Below are positions 47,856 to 53,174 of a stretch of DNA of 64,000 bases, piece by piece. The notes below the pieces were generated by a model. The model searched no databases. It was not told where the DNA came from and saw only the letters and a program-made list of their open reading frames with translations. Both the position numbers and the translations under genes were made by a program. This DNA comes from Natronomonas salsuginis. GTDB taxonomy: Archaea > Halobacteriota > Halobacteria > Halobacteriales > Haloarculaceae. The stretch is taken from positions 62,001 to 126,000 of the forward strand of contig NZ_QKNX01000001.1 of assembly GCF_005239135.1 (NCBI RefSeq), in the 5' to 3' direction. How positions within the stretch are numbered: position 1 is the first letter of the stretch; each line of letters starts with the position of its first letter.

Positions 47856-48890
47856 CTAGACGCCGGAAATCGGCGGCGACCAGCCGTGTCGCTCCGCGAC
47901 GAAATCGATGAATCCGGGGAACTCGTGTTCGTGGCCCAGTATCTCGGCGGCGAATGCGGACTCCGGTTGGTCCGAGAAGCCGCCGGAACCGACCATTCGA
48001 CGCAGCACTTCCTCGATCTCGGCCGAACTATCGGCGAAGGCGTCGATGAACGCTTCCGGCGTATCACCGAAGCGATCCCCGAACGCGTCCCTCGCGTCCG
48101 CGTAGGCGTCAGCCAACCAGCGCTCCCGGTGGTTTTGATACGCGTCTTCGTACGCCGAGTGAAGCGTTTCGAACTCGCCGGCGGTGAGTGGATCGGTCGC
48201 CGAGAGGAACGTGACGAACGTGGCTGCAGCCCGTTTCGCCGCCGGATCGTTCGGGTCCGTGCTCGGGAATCGGCGTTCGTCGAGCGGTTCGACGGCGGCG
48301 TTCGGCGAGGTCGAAACGGCCACGGCGTGCGTCCCGTCGGGCTTCGTGCGGACGTACGCGGTGTACTGGAACCGTTCGTGACGGAACTGCCGGACGACGT
48401 CGTCGCCGTGACTGCCGCCGAGTCGTCCGTACCACCGCTCGACCCCGAGCTCGGCGAGCGGCGGCGTAAACGAGGTCGGCGAGAAGACGAGGTCCACCAG
48501 TTCGACGCCGGTCAGTCGCGGCGTACAGGGGATCGCGGCGAGCTCCTTCAGCACCCGCCGTCGGTTGTCACCGAGTCGGGCGCTTCGGCCGCACGACTCA
48601 CAAACGACGCTCCGACCGGTCGTCGGATGTTCGGGGGTGACGGTCGGAACGTGATCGCCGACGGGGACGTCCGGTAGCTCGTACTGTCCGCAAGGGATCG
48701 CGGCGAGTTCCTTCAACGCCCGCCGGATCGGGCCTTCGGCCGTGACCGAGTACGGAACGGTTACCCCGCAGGACTCACACCGAACGAAACGCTCGCGTGA
48801 ATACAGGGAGGGCGTGTGGCCGCGAGCGACGAGTGTCGGGTCGACATCGAAATCCCGGAGCGTCGTCGATCGGGCGTCCTGCGTTGCCAT
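47856..48890 (-). CDS. Protein with duplicated CxxC module, unknown function
   Basis: The 344-residue protein has an unusual tandem unit in its first 125 residues. CESCG (Cys38/Cys41) is followed by RRALKELAAIPC (Cys67). Then CESCG (Cys97/Cys100) is followed by RRVLKELAAIPC (Cys122). This gives three Cys per repeat and looks like a duplicated metal-binding element. The rest is a helical acidic domain with no recognised family. TATAAAAA at 48913-48920 is centred 26 bases before ATG 48890. It is divergent from the FlaD/E-like gene. Confidence 0.75.
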   Translation of the reverse strand: MATQDARSTTLRDFDVDPTLVARGHTPSLYSRERFVRCESCGVTVPYSVTAEGPIRRALKELAAIPCGQYELPDVPVGDHVPTVTPEHPTTGRSVVCESCGRSARLGDNRRRVLKELAAIPCTPRLTGVELVDLVFSPTSFTPPLAELGVERWYGRLGGSHGDDVVRQFRHERFQYTAYVRTKPDGTHAVAVSTSPNAAVEPLDERRFPSTDPNDPAAKRAAATFVTFLSATDPLTAGEFETLHSAYEDAYQNHRERWLADAYADARDAFGDRFGDTPEAFIDAFADSSAEIEEVLRRMVGSGGFSDQPESAFAAEILGHEHEFPGFIDFVAERHGWSPPISGV

Positions 48891-49023
48891 GTCGGGGCGT
48901 TCGACACCACGTATAAAAACGGTGTCCACGATGTGCGGTTCTGTTTCGAACACTGAAACCACCCGAACACACCGCTCGAAATCGAGCCGGCGTTTATACG
49001 CACCGTCGTCGAACCATCGTGTC

Positions 49024-49923
49024 ATGACCGGCCGACTGAACCCCCGCCGATACGATCTGGGCGAGCTTCGAGATGCGGTTCGGAAGCCGCCCCGCGAGCG
49101 CACAGTCGGCGACTCCGCCGCGAACACCGACCGCGGTGCTGCTCGGTCGCCTCGCGACCGATCGTCTCACGCCTCCGAAGACGCCGGCCGAACGGTCCCG
49201 GTCGAGCCGATCACCGAGACGCGACCTCCCGAAGCCGCGACCGACGCGTCTCGGCCACGGTCATCGGACGACTCGGAAGCGTCGATAGAAAACCGGTCGC
49301 GGCCGGCGTCCGGCGGTGCCAGCGATAGATCGGCCGTTCGCGGAACCGGTCCGATGTCCGATTCTCACTCGAGGGAGCCGTCCGGAGACAGCACAGCACG
49401 GACCGCGAACCGAACGCCGCCCGCGGACGCCGCCGACGTCGAGGCGTACCTTCGCTCGCGTCATCAACGCCGAGCCGACGGACGTACCGCCCAGGAGGTG
49501 CAGCGGGACTCGGATCGTCGACCGTCCCGCGGAGATGCCCGAAACGGCGACCGGGAGCAGCGGGCCGAGTCCGCGTCGGCCGAGTTCAACCGGACACCGA
49601 ACGCGACAGCGCTGTTGGCTGAGCTATCCGGGCCGGCGGTTTCAAAGCCGTATCTCGATCGACTCCCGGACGCGTACACCGCACAACTCGAGATCTTCGA
49701 GTGGCTCGAGTGGATGCTCGCTGCCACCGGTCACGACGGGACGCTGACCGCTCTCGCGTACTACGAATCGATCGGATGGCTCTCCGAGCGGAGTCGGGAG
49801 GCGTTGGAGGACGTCGTCGCCGGGCTGTCAGCGCCGCAGGCGACGGGGCAAACGCTCAGTATCGACGATCACCGCGAGAGTCTCGTACACGTCGCCCGAC
49901 TCGCGGGCAGACTCCGCCAGTAA
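49024..49923 (+). CDS. Stand-alone FlaD/E-like archaellum accessory domain protein
   Basis: The 299-residue protein has a long disordered, Ser/Arg/Asp-rich N-terminal part (about 15-185). A C-terminal domain follows: KPYLDRLPDAYTAQLEIFEW, LEWMLAATGHDGTLTALAYYESIGWLS. This matches the archaellum FlaD/FlaE cytosolic domain. Those proteins normally sit in archaellum operons and form the cytosolic ring. Here no other archaellum gene is nearby. Its start lies 28-30 bases after a TTTATACG box. Confidence 0.8.
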   Translation: MTGRLNPRRYDLGELRDAVRKPPRERTVGDSAANTDRGAARSPRDRSSHASEDAGRTVPVEPITETRPPEAATDASRPRSSDDSEASIENRSRPASGGASDRSAVRGTGPMSDSHSREPSGDSTARTANRTPPADAADVEAYLRSRHQRRADGRTAQEVQRDSDRRPSRGDARNGDREQRAESASAEFNRTPNATALLAELSGPAVSKPYLDRLPDAYTAQLEIFEWLEWMLAATGHDGTLTALAYYESIGWLSERSREALEDVVAGLSAPQATGQTLSIDDHRESLVHVARLAGRLRQ

Positions 49924-50260: not shown

Positions 50261-52825
50261 TCAGCTCCCCAGTGCGGCGAAGGGGCGAAGCAAGAGCGGG
50301 ACGTACTCCCGACTCGGCTCGTACGCGGCGAACGCGAGGCTGTTCGACATGACCGAAACGCTCGATGCGGCCATCGCCGCGCCGGCGAGTGCGGGATTGA
50401 GCAGTCCGAGCGAGGCGACGGGGATGAGCACCGCGTTGTACCCCAGCGCCCAGAAGAGATTCTGTCGGATCTTCGACAGCGTCGCCTCCGAGATCCGAAT
50501 GGCCTTGAGCACGTCCGCGGGATCCGAGCGCATCAGCGTCACGTCGGCGGCCTCCATCGCGACGTCGGTTCCCGAGCCGATGGCGACGCCGATATGCGCC
50601 GTCGTGAGCGCGGGCGCGTCGTTGACCCCGTCGCCGACCATCATCGCCCGGGTTCCGTCGGCCTGTATCGACTCGATCACGTCGGCCTTCTCGTCCGGGA
50701 GCACCTCGGAGCGGACGCGCTCGGTCGGAATGCCGACCTCCGCGGCGACCGCCGACGCGGTTCGATCGTTGTCCCCAGTCAGCATGTACACCTCGTAACC
50801 TCGGTCGTGGAGCGCCGAAACGGTCGCCTTCGCGCTCTCGCGGACCGTGTCCGCCGTCGCGACGACGCCGATCACGTCCCCGTCGAGCGCGACGAGCATC
50901 GCCGTCTTCCCCTCCCCTTCGAGCCGCTCCATGGTCTCCGTCGCGGGCGTCGAGTCGATTCTGCGGTCGTCGAGCAACGCGCGATTCCCGACGAGCACGT
51001 CGCCGTGCTCGGTGGTCGCTTCGACCCCCTTGCCGGGGACGTTCTCGAACGTCTCGACCGTCGCGAGGTCGATACCGTGCTCGTCGGCCCCGCGGACGAT
51101 GGCTTCCCCGAGCGGGTGTTCGGAGCCGGATTCGGCGCTCGCCGCGACGGCCAGCACGAACGACTCGTCGACCGCCTGTGCGGCGACCGCACCGCCGTCG
51201 GCTCGCACGTTGCGCTCGACGGGTTCGACGTCGGTCAACTGCATCTCGCCCTCGGTGAGCGTCCCCGTCTTGTCGAAGACGACGGCGTCCGTCTCGCGGA
51301 CGCGCTCGAGCACGTCGCCGCCCTTGAACAGGACGCCGTTCTTCGCCGAGATCGTCGAGCCGACCATCGTCGCCGCGGGCGTCGCGAGCCCGAGCGCGCA
51401 GGGACAGGCGATCAGGACGGCCGACGCGAACACGATCATCGAGAACTCGAAGATCGGAACGCCGCCCACGATCGGGCCGCCACCGACCTGTCCGATCGGC
51501 AACTGACCGACGATCGAGTACAGTTGGCTCGGGAACGCGTACCAGAGCGCGGCCCAGACGACGGCGTTGACGATCACCGCCGGAACGAAGTAGCCGCTGA
51601 CGCGGTCGACCTGCCGCTGGATGTCCGGCTGCCTGGATTGGGCCTCCTTGACCCGGCGGACGATCTGTTGGATCGCGGTATCCTCGCCGACCTTCGTCGC
51701 CTCGACGAGCAGGACGCCGTTCTCGTTCACCGTCGAGCCGACGACCTCGTCTCTCGGCGACTTCTCGACGGGGACGGACTCGCCGGTCAGCATCGACTCG
51801 TCGACGGCCGACTCCCCCTCGGCGACGATCCCGTCGGTTGGGATCCGCTCCCCGGGTCGGATCTTCATAACGTCGCCGACCTCGACGTCCGACAGCGGTA
51901 CCGTCCGCTCTTCGCCTTCTCGGATCACGACCGCCTCGTCGGCCTCCATCCGGAGCAACTCCCGCAGGGCGTCGGACGCCGTGGCCTTCGAGCGCGCTTC
52001 GAGCCAGTTGCCGACCGTGATGAACCAGAGGATGAACGCGACGGCCTCGAAGTAGAGATCGCCGGTGATCAGCCCGAAGACGACCGCCGCGCTGAACAGG
52101 TAGCCGGCGCTCGACCCGGTCGCTACGAGCGTGTCCATGTTCGCGGTCCGGTTTTTCACCGCTTTGTACGCGCCGACCAGGAACTCCCGGCCGAGCGTCG
52201 CCATCAGCACCGTCGCGAATCCGAACTGCACCCACCCAAACGGGATCGAACCGATCGACTCCGGATGCGAAAGCGGAGTGAACATCGCCACCATCAGGTA
52301 GACGAACGGCAACGCGAGCACGCCGCCCCCGACGACGAGTCGACGCTGCTTTCGCAGTTCGCGCTCCGCGGCGGTCTCGCCCTCGGCGTCGCTGCCGTCG
52401 TCTTCGTCTCGGTGCATCGGCTCGTACCCCGACTCCTCGATCGCGTCGTAGGCGTCCTCGAGCGAGAACGACTCCGGATTGTACTCGACGGTCGCCTCGT
52501 CGGTCGCGTAGTTCACGTCGGCCCGGAGCACGCCCGGAAGTTCCGCGAGAGCGTCGGACACCGTCTTCGAGCACGTCGAGCAGTGCATACCCGAGACGGC
52601 GATCGTTCGCGTCTCGCGTCGGGGATCGTATCCCGACTCCTCGATCGCTGTGTAGATCTCCGAGAGCGGCACGTCCGTGGGATCGTACTCGACGGTCGCC
52701 TCGTCGGTCGCGTAGTTCACCGACGCGTCGACGACCCCGTCGAGTGATTCGACCGCGTCGGCGACGGTCTCCGAACACGTCGAACAGTGCATCCCGCCGA
52801 CGCCGATGCGTTCACGTCTGATCAT
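50261..52825 (-). CDS. copA: Copper-exporting P-type ATPase
   Basis: The 854-residue P1B-ATPase starts with two heavy-metal-associated domains (GMHCSTC at Cys14/17 and again at Cys82/85). It has about eight transmembrane helices with the [10 protein letters not shown] ion-channel motif, the phosphorylation Asp in [23 protein letters not shown] and [10 protein letters not shown]. The CPC motif and the HMA pair indicate Cu(I) export. It is divergent from the CopZ-type chaperone gene, and a TRASH-domain regulator follows. ATG 52825 gives a natural N-terminus. Confidence 0.96.
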
Positions 52826-52976
52826 GGACGTACGTACGGCTTCCACATTGATTGGGTTTGTCGTTTAGAATATTCGATACGATCGCGCAGATACTTTGGT
52901 TTCAAATATCGAAGGCGACTTCGACCGGATCACCGAAAGCACAATCGACAAAACCGTCCCCCGCGTACGAGAACGC

Positions 52977-53174
52977 ATGTCCACGACACTAACGGTGAGC
53001 GGGATGGCCTGTGACGGCTGTGAACGAAACGTCGAGGAGGCGGTCGAATCGGTTCCGGGAGTCGAGCGGGTCGACGCGGACCACGACGCGGGACGCGTCA
53101 CCGTCGAGGGCGACGCCGACGTCGACACACTCGTGTCGGCCATCGACGAGGCCGGCTACGAAGCCACCGCCTAG
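52977..53174 (+). CDS. copZ: CopZ-like copper chaperone
   Basis: The 65-residue single heavy-metal-associated domain reads TTLTVSGMACDGCERNVEEAVESVPGV, with the metal CxxC in MACDGC. It would carry Cu(I) to CopA. It lies divergent from copA and is followed by the regulator gene on the opposite strand. A TATA-like GACAAAACC is centred about 27 bases before ATG 52977. Confidence 0.92.
   Translation: MSTTLTVSGMACDGCERNVEEAVESVPGVERVDADHDAGRVTVEGDADVDTLVSAIDEAGYEATA

Follow-up and report, generated by a model that had tools for sequence, protein, structure and literature searches.

What a protein with a duplicated cysteine module might do beside an archaellum-type gene is the question raised by a locus of Natronomonas salsuginis, analysed here within a stretch of 64,000 nucleotides (the window). 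The gene of this twin-module protein (47856..48890, minus strand) is an uninterrupted open frame of 344 aa, and its translation agrees with the original prediction, made from the window's sequence, of two CESCG...RRxLKELAAIPC units at residues 38-67 and 97-122. The gene facing it, earlier described as FlaD/E-like, is a divergent 299-aa FlaD/E-domain gene (49024..49923, plus strand; PF04659, E=1.4e-23). Divergent leaderless promoters had likewise been proposed for the pair, and TATA-like boxes indeed lie at fitting distances from both start codons, TTTTTATA for the twin-module gene (48912..48919, minus strand) and TTTATA for the FlaD/E-like gene (48993..48998, plus strand). These boxes are found 22-29 bases 5′ of the twin-module ATG and 26-31 bases 5′ of the FlaD/E ATG, a spacing that would be expected for putative leaderless haloarchaeal promoters, and a TATA-like box stands at the same place as the window's in 6/11 family members. 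These 11 members, the window's included, are matched by a profile over nearly the whole protein length.

The twin-module protein contains six cysteines, C38, C41, C67, C97, C100 and C122, and none besides. In the AlphaFold2 model, the modules are followed by a middle domain of five predicted strands and helices (residues 127-234; 48189..48512, minus strand) and by a C-terminal acidic, mostly helical part with a net charge of −16 (residues 235-344; 47859..48188, minus strand). Hydrophobic membrane segments are absent in all 11 family members. Structure prediction of the full protein, which had been suggested as a check, did give a model (mean pLDDT 66.8, with low confidence from about residue 301 on), but its fold matches were at noise level only (best Foldseek E 0.47, best Z 5.5), as were those of a separate N-terminal model (mean pLDDT 68.0; best E 1.2, best Z 3.2). 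Within that noise, the rows listed actin-capping protein, frataxin and DR_1245 for the middle domain and C1, BED-type and eIF5 chains for the modules.

Sequence libraries were equally silent. No Pfam match reached its cut-off in any member or single unit, NCBIfam held nothing near cut-off for the protein, PHROGs matches were weak and concerned families of unknown function (best E 0.007), PADLOC returned no family at E 0.1, and among PDB sequences no convincing match was found to the protein, the alignment or the module. A profile search with the module, also named beforehand as a check, reached no characterised zinc-finger family in Pfam, the best unit match being Zn_ribbon_PriA (E=0.0071), found in one unit and below cut-off. 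Several other candidates were rejected: zf_UBZ (best E=0.0043, in one protein of the genus g22, below cut-off); thymidylate synthase, judged a chance match (NCBIfam PRK13821, 17.6 bits against 576; PDB 3v8h, whose E=0.0029 weakened to E=0.13 with the alignment as query); and the KELAA motif (PF19311), a coincidence of name (7.9 bits against 23.4) for which a search of the genome itself gave 0 matches, an uninformative result as 14 control genomes also gave 0. The searches thus support the view that no characterised family in Pfam, NCBIfam, PHROGs, PADLOC or the PDB sequences and folds claims the protein, and the family is undescribed in these libraries; the absence of a match is, however, no demonstration of a new fold.

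The duplication of the module is solid at the profile level. Module 1 extends from H25 to C67 (H25, C38, C41, C67; 48690..48818, minus strand) and module 2 from H80 to C122 (H80, C97, C100, C122; 48525..48653, minus strand), and alignments of the two units match each other with E = 2.7e-9 (hhalign), H25 being paired with H80. AlphaFold2 predicts, at modest confidence, the same order in both: a His just before the first strand, two strands, the CxxCG, a third strand, a helix and the last Cys. Of 1000 shuffles of the window protein, 0 reached the similarity of its two units, whether the cysteines were fixed or free. With cysteines fixed, the counts per 1000 shuffles across the eight Natronomonas proteins, the window's among them, were 0 in four, 1 in one, and 13, 39 and 93 in the remaining three, and the repeat similarity is weaker in divergent relatives than in the window protein. 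The claim that the units are nearly identical accordingly holds for the window protein, where the helix stretches share 11/13 residues, and not for the other seven Natronomonas, where they share 2-7/13; the near-identity of the RRxLKELAAIPC helices is peculiar to the window's species. At the nucleotide level, the two helix-coding stretches (48690-48728 and 48525-48563 of the window) are identical at 31/39 bases, compared with 11-26/39 in the relatives, and look as if they had been recently homogenised in the window lineage, or are alike by chance.

Each unit had been read as a three-cysteine centre. All six cysteines are kept in 11/11 family members, including the three distant ones, which were left out of the count of invariant columns; H80 is likewise kept in 11/11 and H25 in 10/11, the exception being a plasmid-borne member in which an alignment gap at that position leaves H25 unplaced. 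The H-x12-C-x2-C spacing of unit 1 is constant in 10/11 members, and the eight Natronomonas proteins, with 16 units between them, share invariant columns of H, R, C, C, G, L and C. H88, a further candidate ligand that is invariant in the eight Natronomonas, was rejected on being lost in 3/3 members outside the genus. Given this conservation and the pairing of H25 with H80 in the profile alignment, each unit probably offers four candidate ligands (His-Cys-Cys-Cys), so that the three conserved cysteines stand and the three-cysteine centre probably does not. The pairing of H25 with H80 rests on conservation and position, since the flanks N-terminal to the CxxC, taken by themselves, show no significant similarity in the window protein (shuffle fraction 0.376); among the seven other Natronomonas, the corresponding fraction was 0.608 in one and between 0.004 and 0.076 in six, and the three distant members gave 0.36 to 0.89.

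The conserved His and Cys residues fit two putative His-Cys3 zinc sites. The suggestion of a new metal- or redox-active repeat is upheld in so far as a metal site would be compatible with the conserved cysteines, but the repeat appears to be of zinc-finger type and not an unprecedented centre. The identity of the metal should be read against a report on haloarchaeal CxxCG proteins, in which 5/14 purified proteins are described as zinc-free, three of these with another metal, and in which AlphaFold2 is said to mispredict which four-cysteine sites suit metal (PMC11241148).

Tandem fingers of this kind raise the possibility of a zinc-containing regulator or nucleic-acid binder, whose fingers would bind DNA or RNA, whose targets would be the motility genes and for which the gene neighbourhood would reflect only co-regulation. 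We consider this unlikely. Residues 1-125 are near neutral (window protein +2; range over the 11, +3 to −6) compared with −6 to −24 in the C-terminal part, yet 9/11 N-terminal parts are net negative. The sub-threshold Pfam matches do include zinc ribbons of the PriA type (E 0.007) and of TFIIB (PF08271; E=0.04, with 6/8 Natronomonas matching weakly, best E 0.038), but such matches are far under the curated cut-offs (13.9 bits against 29 for PF08271). Divergent promoters would suit autoregulation, whereas the N-terminal fold search, with its best Z of 3.2, offered nothing above noise.

The divergent FlaD/E gene that had been noticed is real, and around it lies a larger neighbourhood that was beyond the view of the original prediction. 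In all eight Natronomonas genomes with the gene, a HEWD gene adjoins it, with CutA too in four, and in 7/8 a FlaD/E-domain gene is divergent to it. The exception, G005, has no FlaD/E neighbour; there the divergent gene encodes a two-helix membrane protein and is followed by a thioredoxin-reductase-type gene. A run of FlaD/E, salactin and membrane-protein genes is present in 4/8 (G007, G017, G004, G006), three of which then have the reductase; the identity of salactin, an actin homologue, is given by PF25229 in the four genes scanned. In the window genome (G000) and G003, the salactin and membrane-protein genes are adjacent to each other elsewhere in the genome, and in G019 the membrane-protein gene is on another contig than the twin-module gene. 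In N. aquatica, a CheW gene lies ~5 kb from the twin-module gene.

A second genus, g22, places the gene in a chemotaxis setting. In 2/2 carriers, a membrane-protein gene is divergent to the twin-module gene, its product 37% identical to that of G005 (E=2e-28), and a protoglobin chemoreceptor gene lies downstream; CheB, CheA and CheR follow on the far side of the membrane-protein gene, past an undefined frame, with CheW further on. The undefined frame, between CheB and the membrane-protein gene, is at least ~120 aa long (L079:5695-6057). The gene is thus encoded with fla/arl-type or che genes in both genera, next to FlaD/E in 7/8 Natronomonas and in a che cluster in 2/2 g22 carriers, the exceptions being G005 for FlaD/E and the plasmid member, whose neighbours are a transposase and serine proteases. 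In a third genus (G033), an unbroken run comprises CheR, CheA, CheB, CheW, two FlaD/E genes, salactin and the membrane-protein gene, and the twin-module profile gives no match, indicating that the cassette exists without the gene. The cassette of FlaD/E, salactin and membrane protein was located at L118:4329-7960 (G033, adjoining CheR-CheA-CheB-CheW), L010:2366-9023 and L016:4554-9979.

Metal-handling genes also flank the locus in the window: on one side, past FlaD/E and a rhodanese-like frame, are a small HMA-like frame and a gene for a P-type ATPase that has two HMA domains (50261-53174), and on the other is CutA. In the stretches examined of the relatives (4.5 to 18 kb), the ATPase is near the gene only in G003 and G004.

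The membrane protein has two hydrophobic stretches in 10/10 aligned sequences. It may be 'PH-like', although Pfam assigns it no family. A single-sequence search of Natronomonas detected it in 8/8 genomes with the twin-module gene and 0/12 without (Fisher 8e-6, shared ancestry ignored). With a ten-sequence profile at E <= 0.01 over 146 genomes of the family, it was matched in 11/11 carriers and in 80/135 non-carriers (Fisher 0.007), the latter including one Natronomonas, G016; because the profile matches so many non-carriers, the single-query result overstates how tightly the membrane protein and the gene are tied. The profile's own ten sequences score at least 264 bits, as they must, the next (G033) scores 127 and all others at most 85, and in the plasmid carrier the match is on a different contig from the twin-module gene.

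The gene itself is thinly spread. It is present in 8/20 Natronomonas genomes, the window's included, and full-length profile searches at the level of the order and phylum turned up Natronomonas alone (5/293, 3/392 and 6/392 genomes), a result that does not demonstrate absence elsewhere, as each genome contributed 5 to 7 scored candidates and the three carriers outside Natronomonas apparently lay outside the sample. Those three, two genomes of g22 and Salinibaculum sp. KK48, were recovered family-wide with a module-only profile. The full-length g22 proteins are 42% identical to the window protein, and the KK48 protein, the most distant member, is 27% identical to it. The latter is encoded on plasmid unnamed2 and annotated 'hypothetical protein' (tblastn with the window protein: E=1e-17, 87% covered), the one record found among plasmids. 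On that plasmid (L086:9766-13056), two serine protease genes, of which the one tested has PF13365, and a small frame precede the twin-module gene, and an IS607 transposase gene follows it.

Such a distribution would suit cargo of a mobile element that hitchhiked into the locus and has no link to motility. Carriers number 11/146 genomes of the family (a count of known carriers and not an independent discovery, as the profile was built on the same 11 sequences), and they amount to 2/4 genomes of g22 and 1/2 of g14, the genus of the plasmid carrier. The plasmid copy adjoins a transposase, and G018, a Natronomonas relative in which the gene's profile gives no match, has the same locus otherwise intact, with CutA, FlaD/E and salactin in the same direction and ~100 bases between CutA and FlaD/E, meaning that the gene was either inserted in the others or lost in G018. 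We nevertheless regard cargo as rather improbable, given that the gene occupies the same place, from the HEWD/CutA side to FlaD/E, in 7/8 Natronomonas, and that a divergent membrane-protein partner is common to two genera. In addition, 22 pattern matches among viral contigs include no relative, and the PADLOC and PHROGs searches gave, respectively, nothing and weak matches only. A role of the protein in defence was rejected on the same PADLOC result.

A redox switch, in which the thiols would hold zinc only when reduced, the nearby thioredoxin-reductase-type enzyme would reset them and the oxidant state would be fed into taxis, seems improbable: a pyridine-nucleotide-disulphide oxidoreductase gene is next to the membrane-protein gene in 5/8 Natronomonas (G005, G007, G017, G004, G000) and the g22 genes have their protoglobin chemoreceptor neighbour, but the oxidoreductase gene is separated from the twin-module gene by 1 to 3.5 kb in four genomes, is far off in the window genome, lies ~5 kb away from the membrane-protein gene in G003 and did not appear in the 15 kb examined of either g22 carrier, and structural zinc sites have the same cysteines.

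Taking these observations together, we tentatively favour a zinc-stabilised soluble adaptor. Its N-terminus would form two tandem zinc-stabilised His-Cys3 fingers, and the β-sheet middle domain and acidic helical tail would complete a soluble cytosolic protein. Such an adaptor may act with the products of the two-helix membrane-protein, FlaD/E-domain and salactin genes at the chemotaxis/archaellum assembly, where it would probably dock one part to another and not catalyse a reaction. Speaking for this role are the conservation of Cys and His, the profile-level duplication, the same predicted order in both modules and the motility/taxis neighbourhood. Against it stand the 3/8 Natronomonas in which the membrane-protein gene is elsewhere (G000, G003, G019), the missing FlaD/E neighbour in G005, the plasmid member without motility neighbours and the G033 cassette without the gene.

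The company of salactin invites a further speculation. Salactin filaments are described as growing from the cell poles of Halobacterium and are proposed to help segregate DNA, and the salactin gene is reported to appear duplicated in 'Natromonas' (PMC10746226). ArlCDE is described as the archaellar switch and the docking site of CheF, an archaellar adaptor that forms polar foci (PMC9126983). Our literature search found no paper with both 'salactin' and 'archaellum'. We speculate, with little confidence, that in some haloarchaea a salactin filament, a FlaD/E switch-like protein, the membrane protein and a twin-finger zinc adaptor could form a polar module with the chemotaxis array. If true, the cytoskeleton would be physically coupled to the archaellum/taxis machinery, and the recurrence of a few-part cassette joining salactin and archaellum-type genes makes such a link testable.

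Comparison with known systems sets the modules apart, consistent with the original view that they lie outside known zinc ribbons, ferredoxins and rubredoxins. Like the TFIIB-type ribbon PF08271 and C4 ribbons, the modules have a CxxCG knuckle ending a predicted strand. The second CxxC of C4 ribbons, which have two per site, is missing in 11/11 members, and a lone Cys after the helix is present instead. Rubredoxin has two CxxC pairs and ferredoxin a four-Cys cluster motif, whereas each unit here has one CxxC and one lone Cys, and Pfam gives no such match. The C1 domain of the protein kinase C type, H-x12-C-x2-C ... C-x2-C ... H-x2-C ... C with two zincs, has in common with module 1 the H-x12-C-x2-C spacing (10/11 members), and the weak fold rows include C1 chains (Z 3.2, 42 residues, 2.5 Å, on the 68-pLDDT model). 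However, the modules are without the second CxxC within a unit, the second His and the final Cys of C1, leaving four ligand candidates against eight.

Closer to home, the haloarchaeal C(P)XCG zinc-finger micro-proteins HVO_2753 and HVO_0758 share CxxCG knuckles with the twin-module protein, but they are shorter than 70 aa and have four Cys per site. The twin-module protein, at 344 aa, has three Cys with one candidate His at each site and, unlike them, two further domains beyond its fingers. Of the two predicted fingers of HVO_2753, only one is described as binding zinc (PMC11241148). On its own, the twin-module protein would be an orphan zinc-finger-like family, and its interest lies mainly in its neighbourhood. 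It is there that the comparison with CheF applies: CheF is described as consisting of PH domains and a CheY-binding domain (PMC9126983), no sequence relation between the two was seen, and the likeness would be one of proposed role only, that of a soluble adaptor near ArlCDE.
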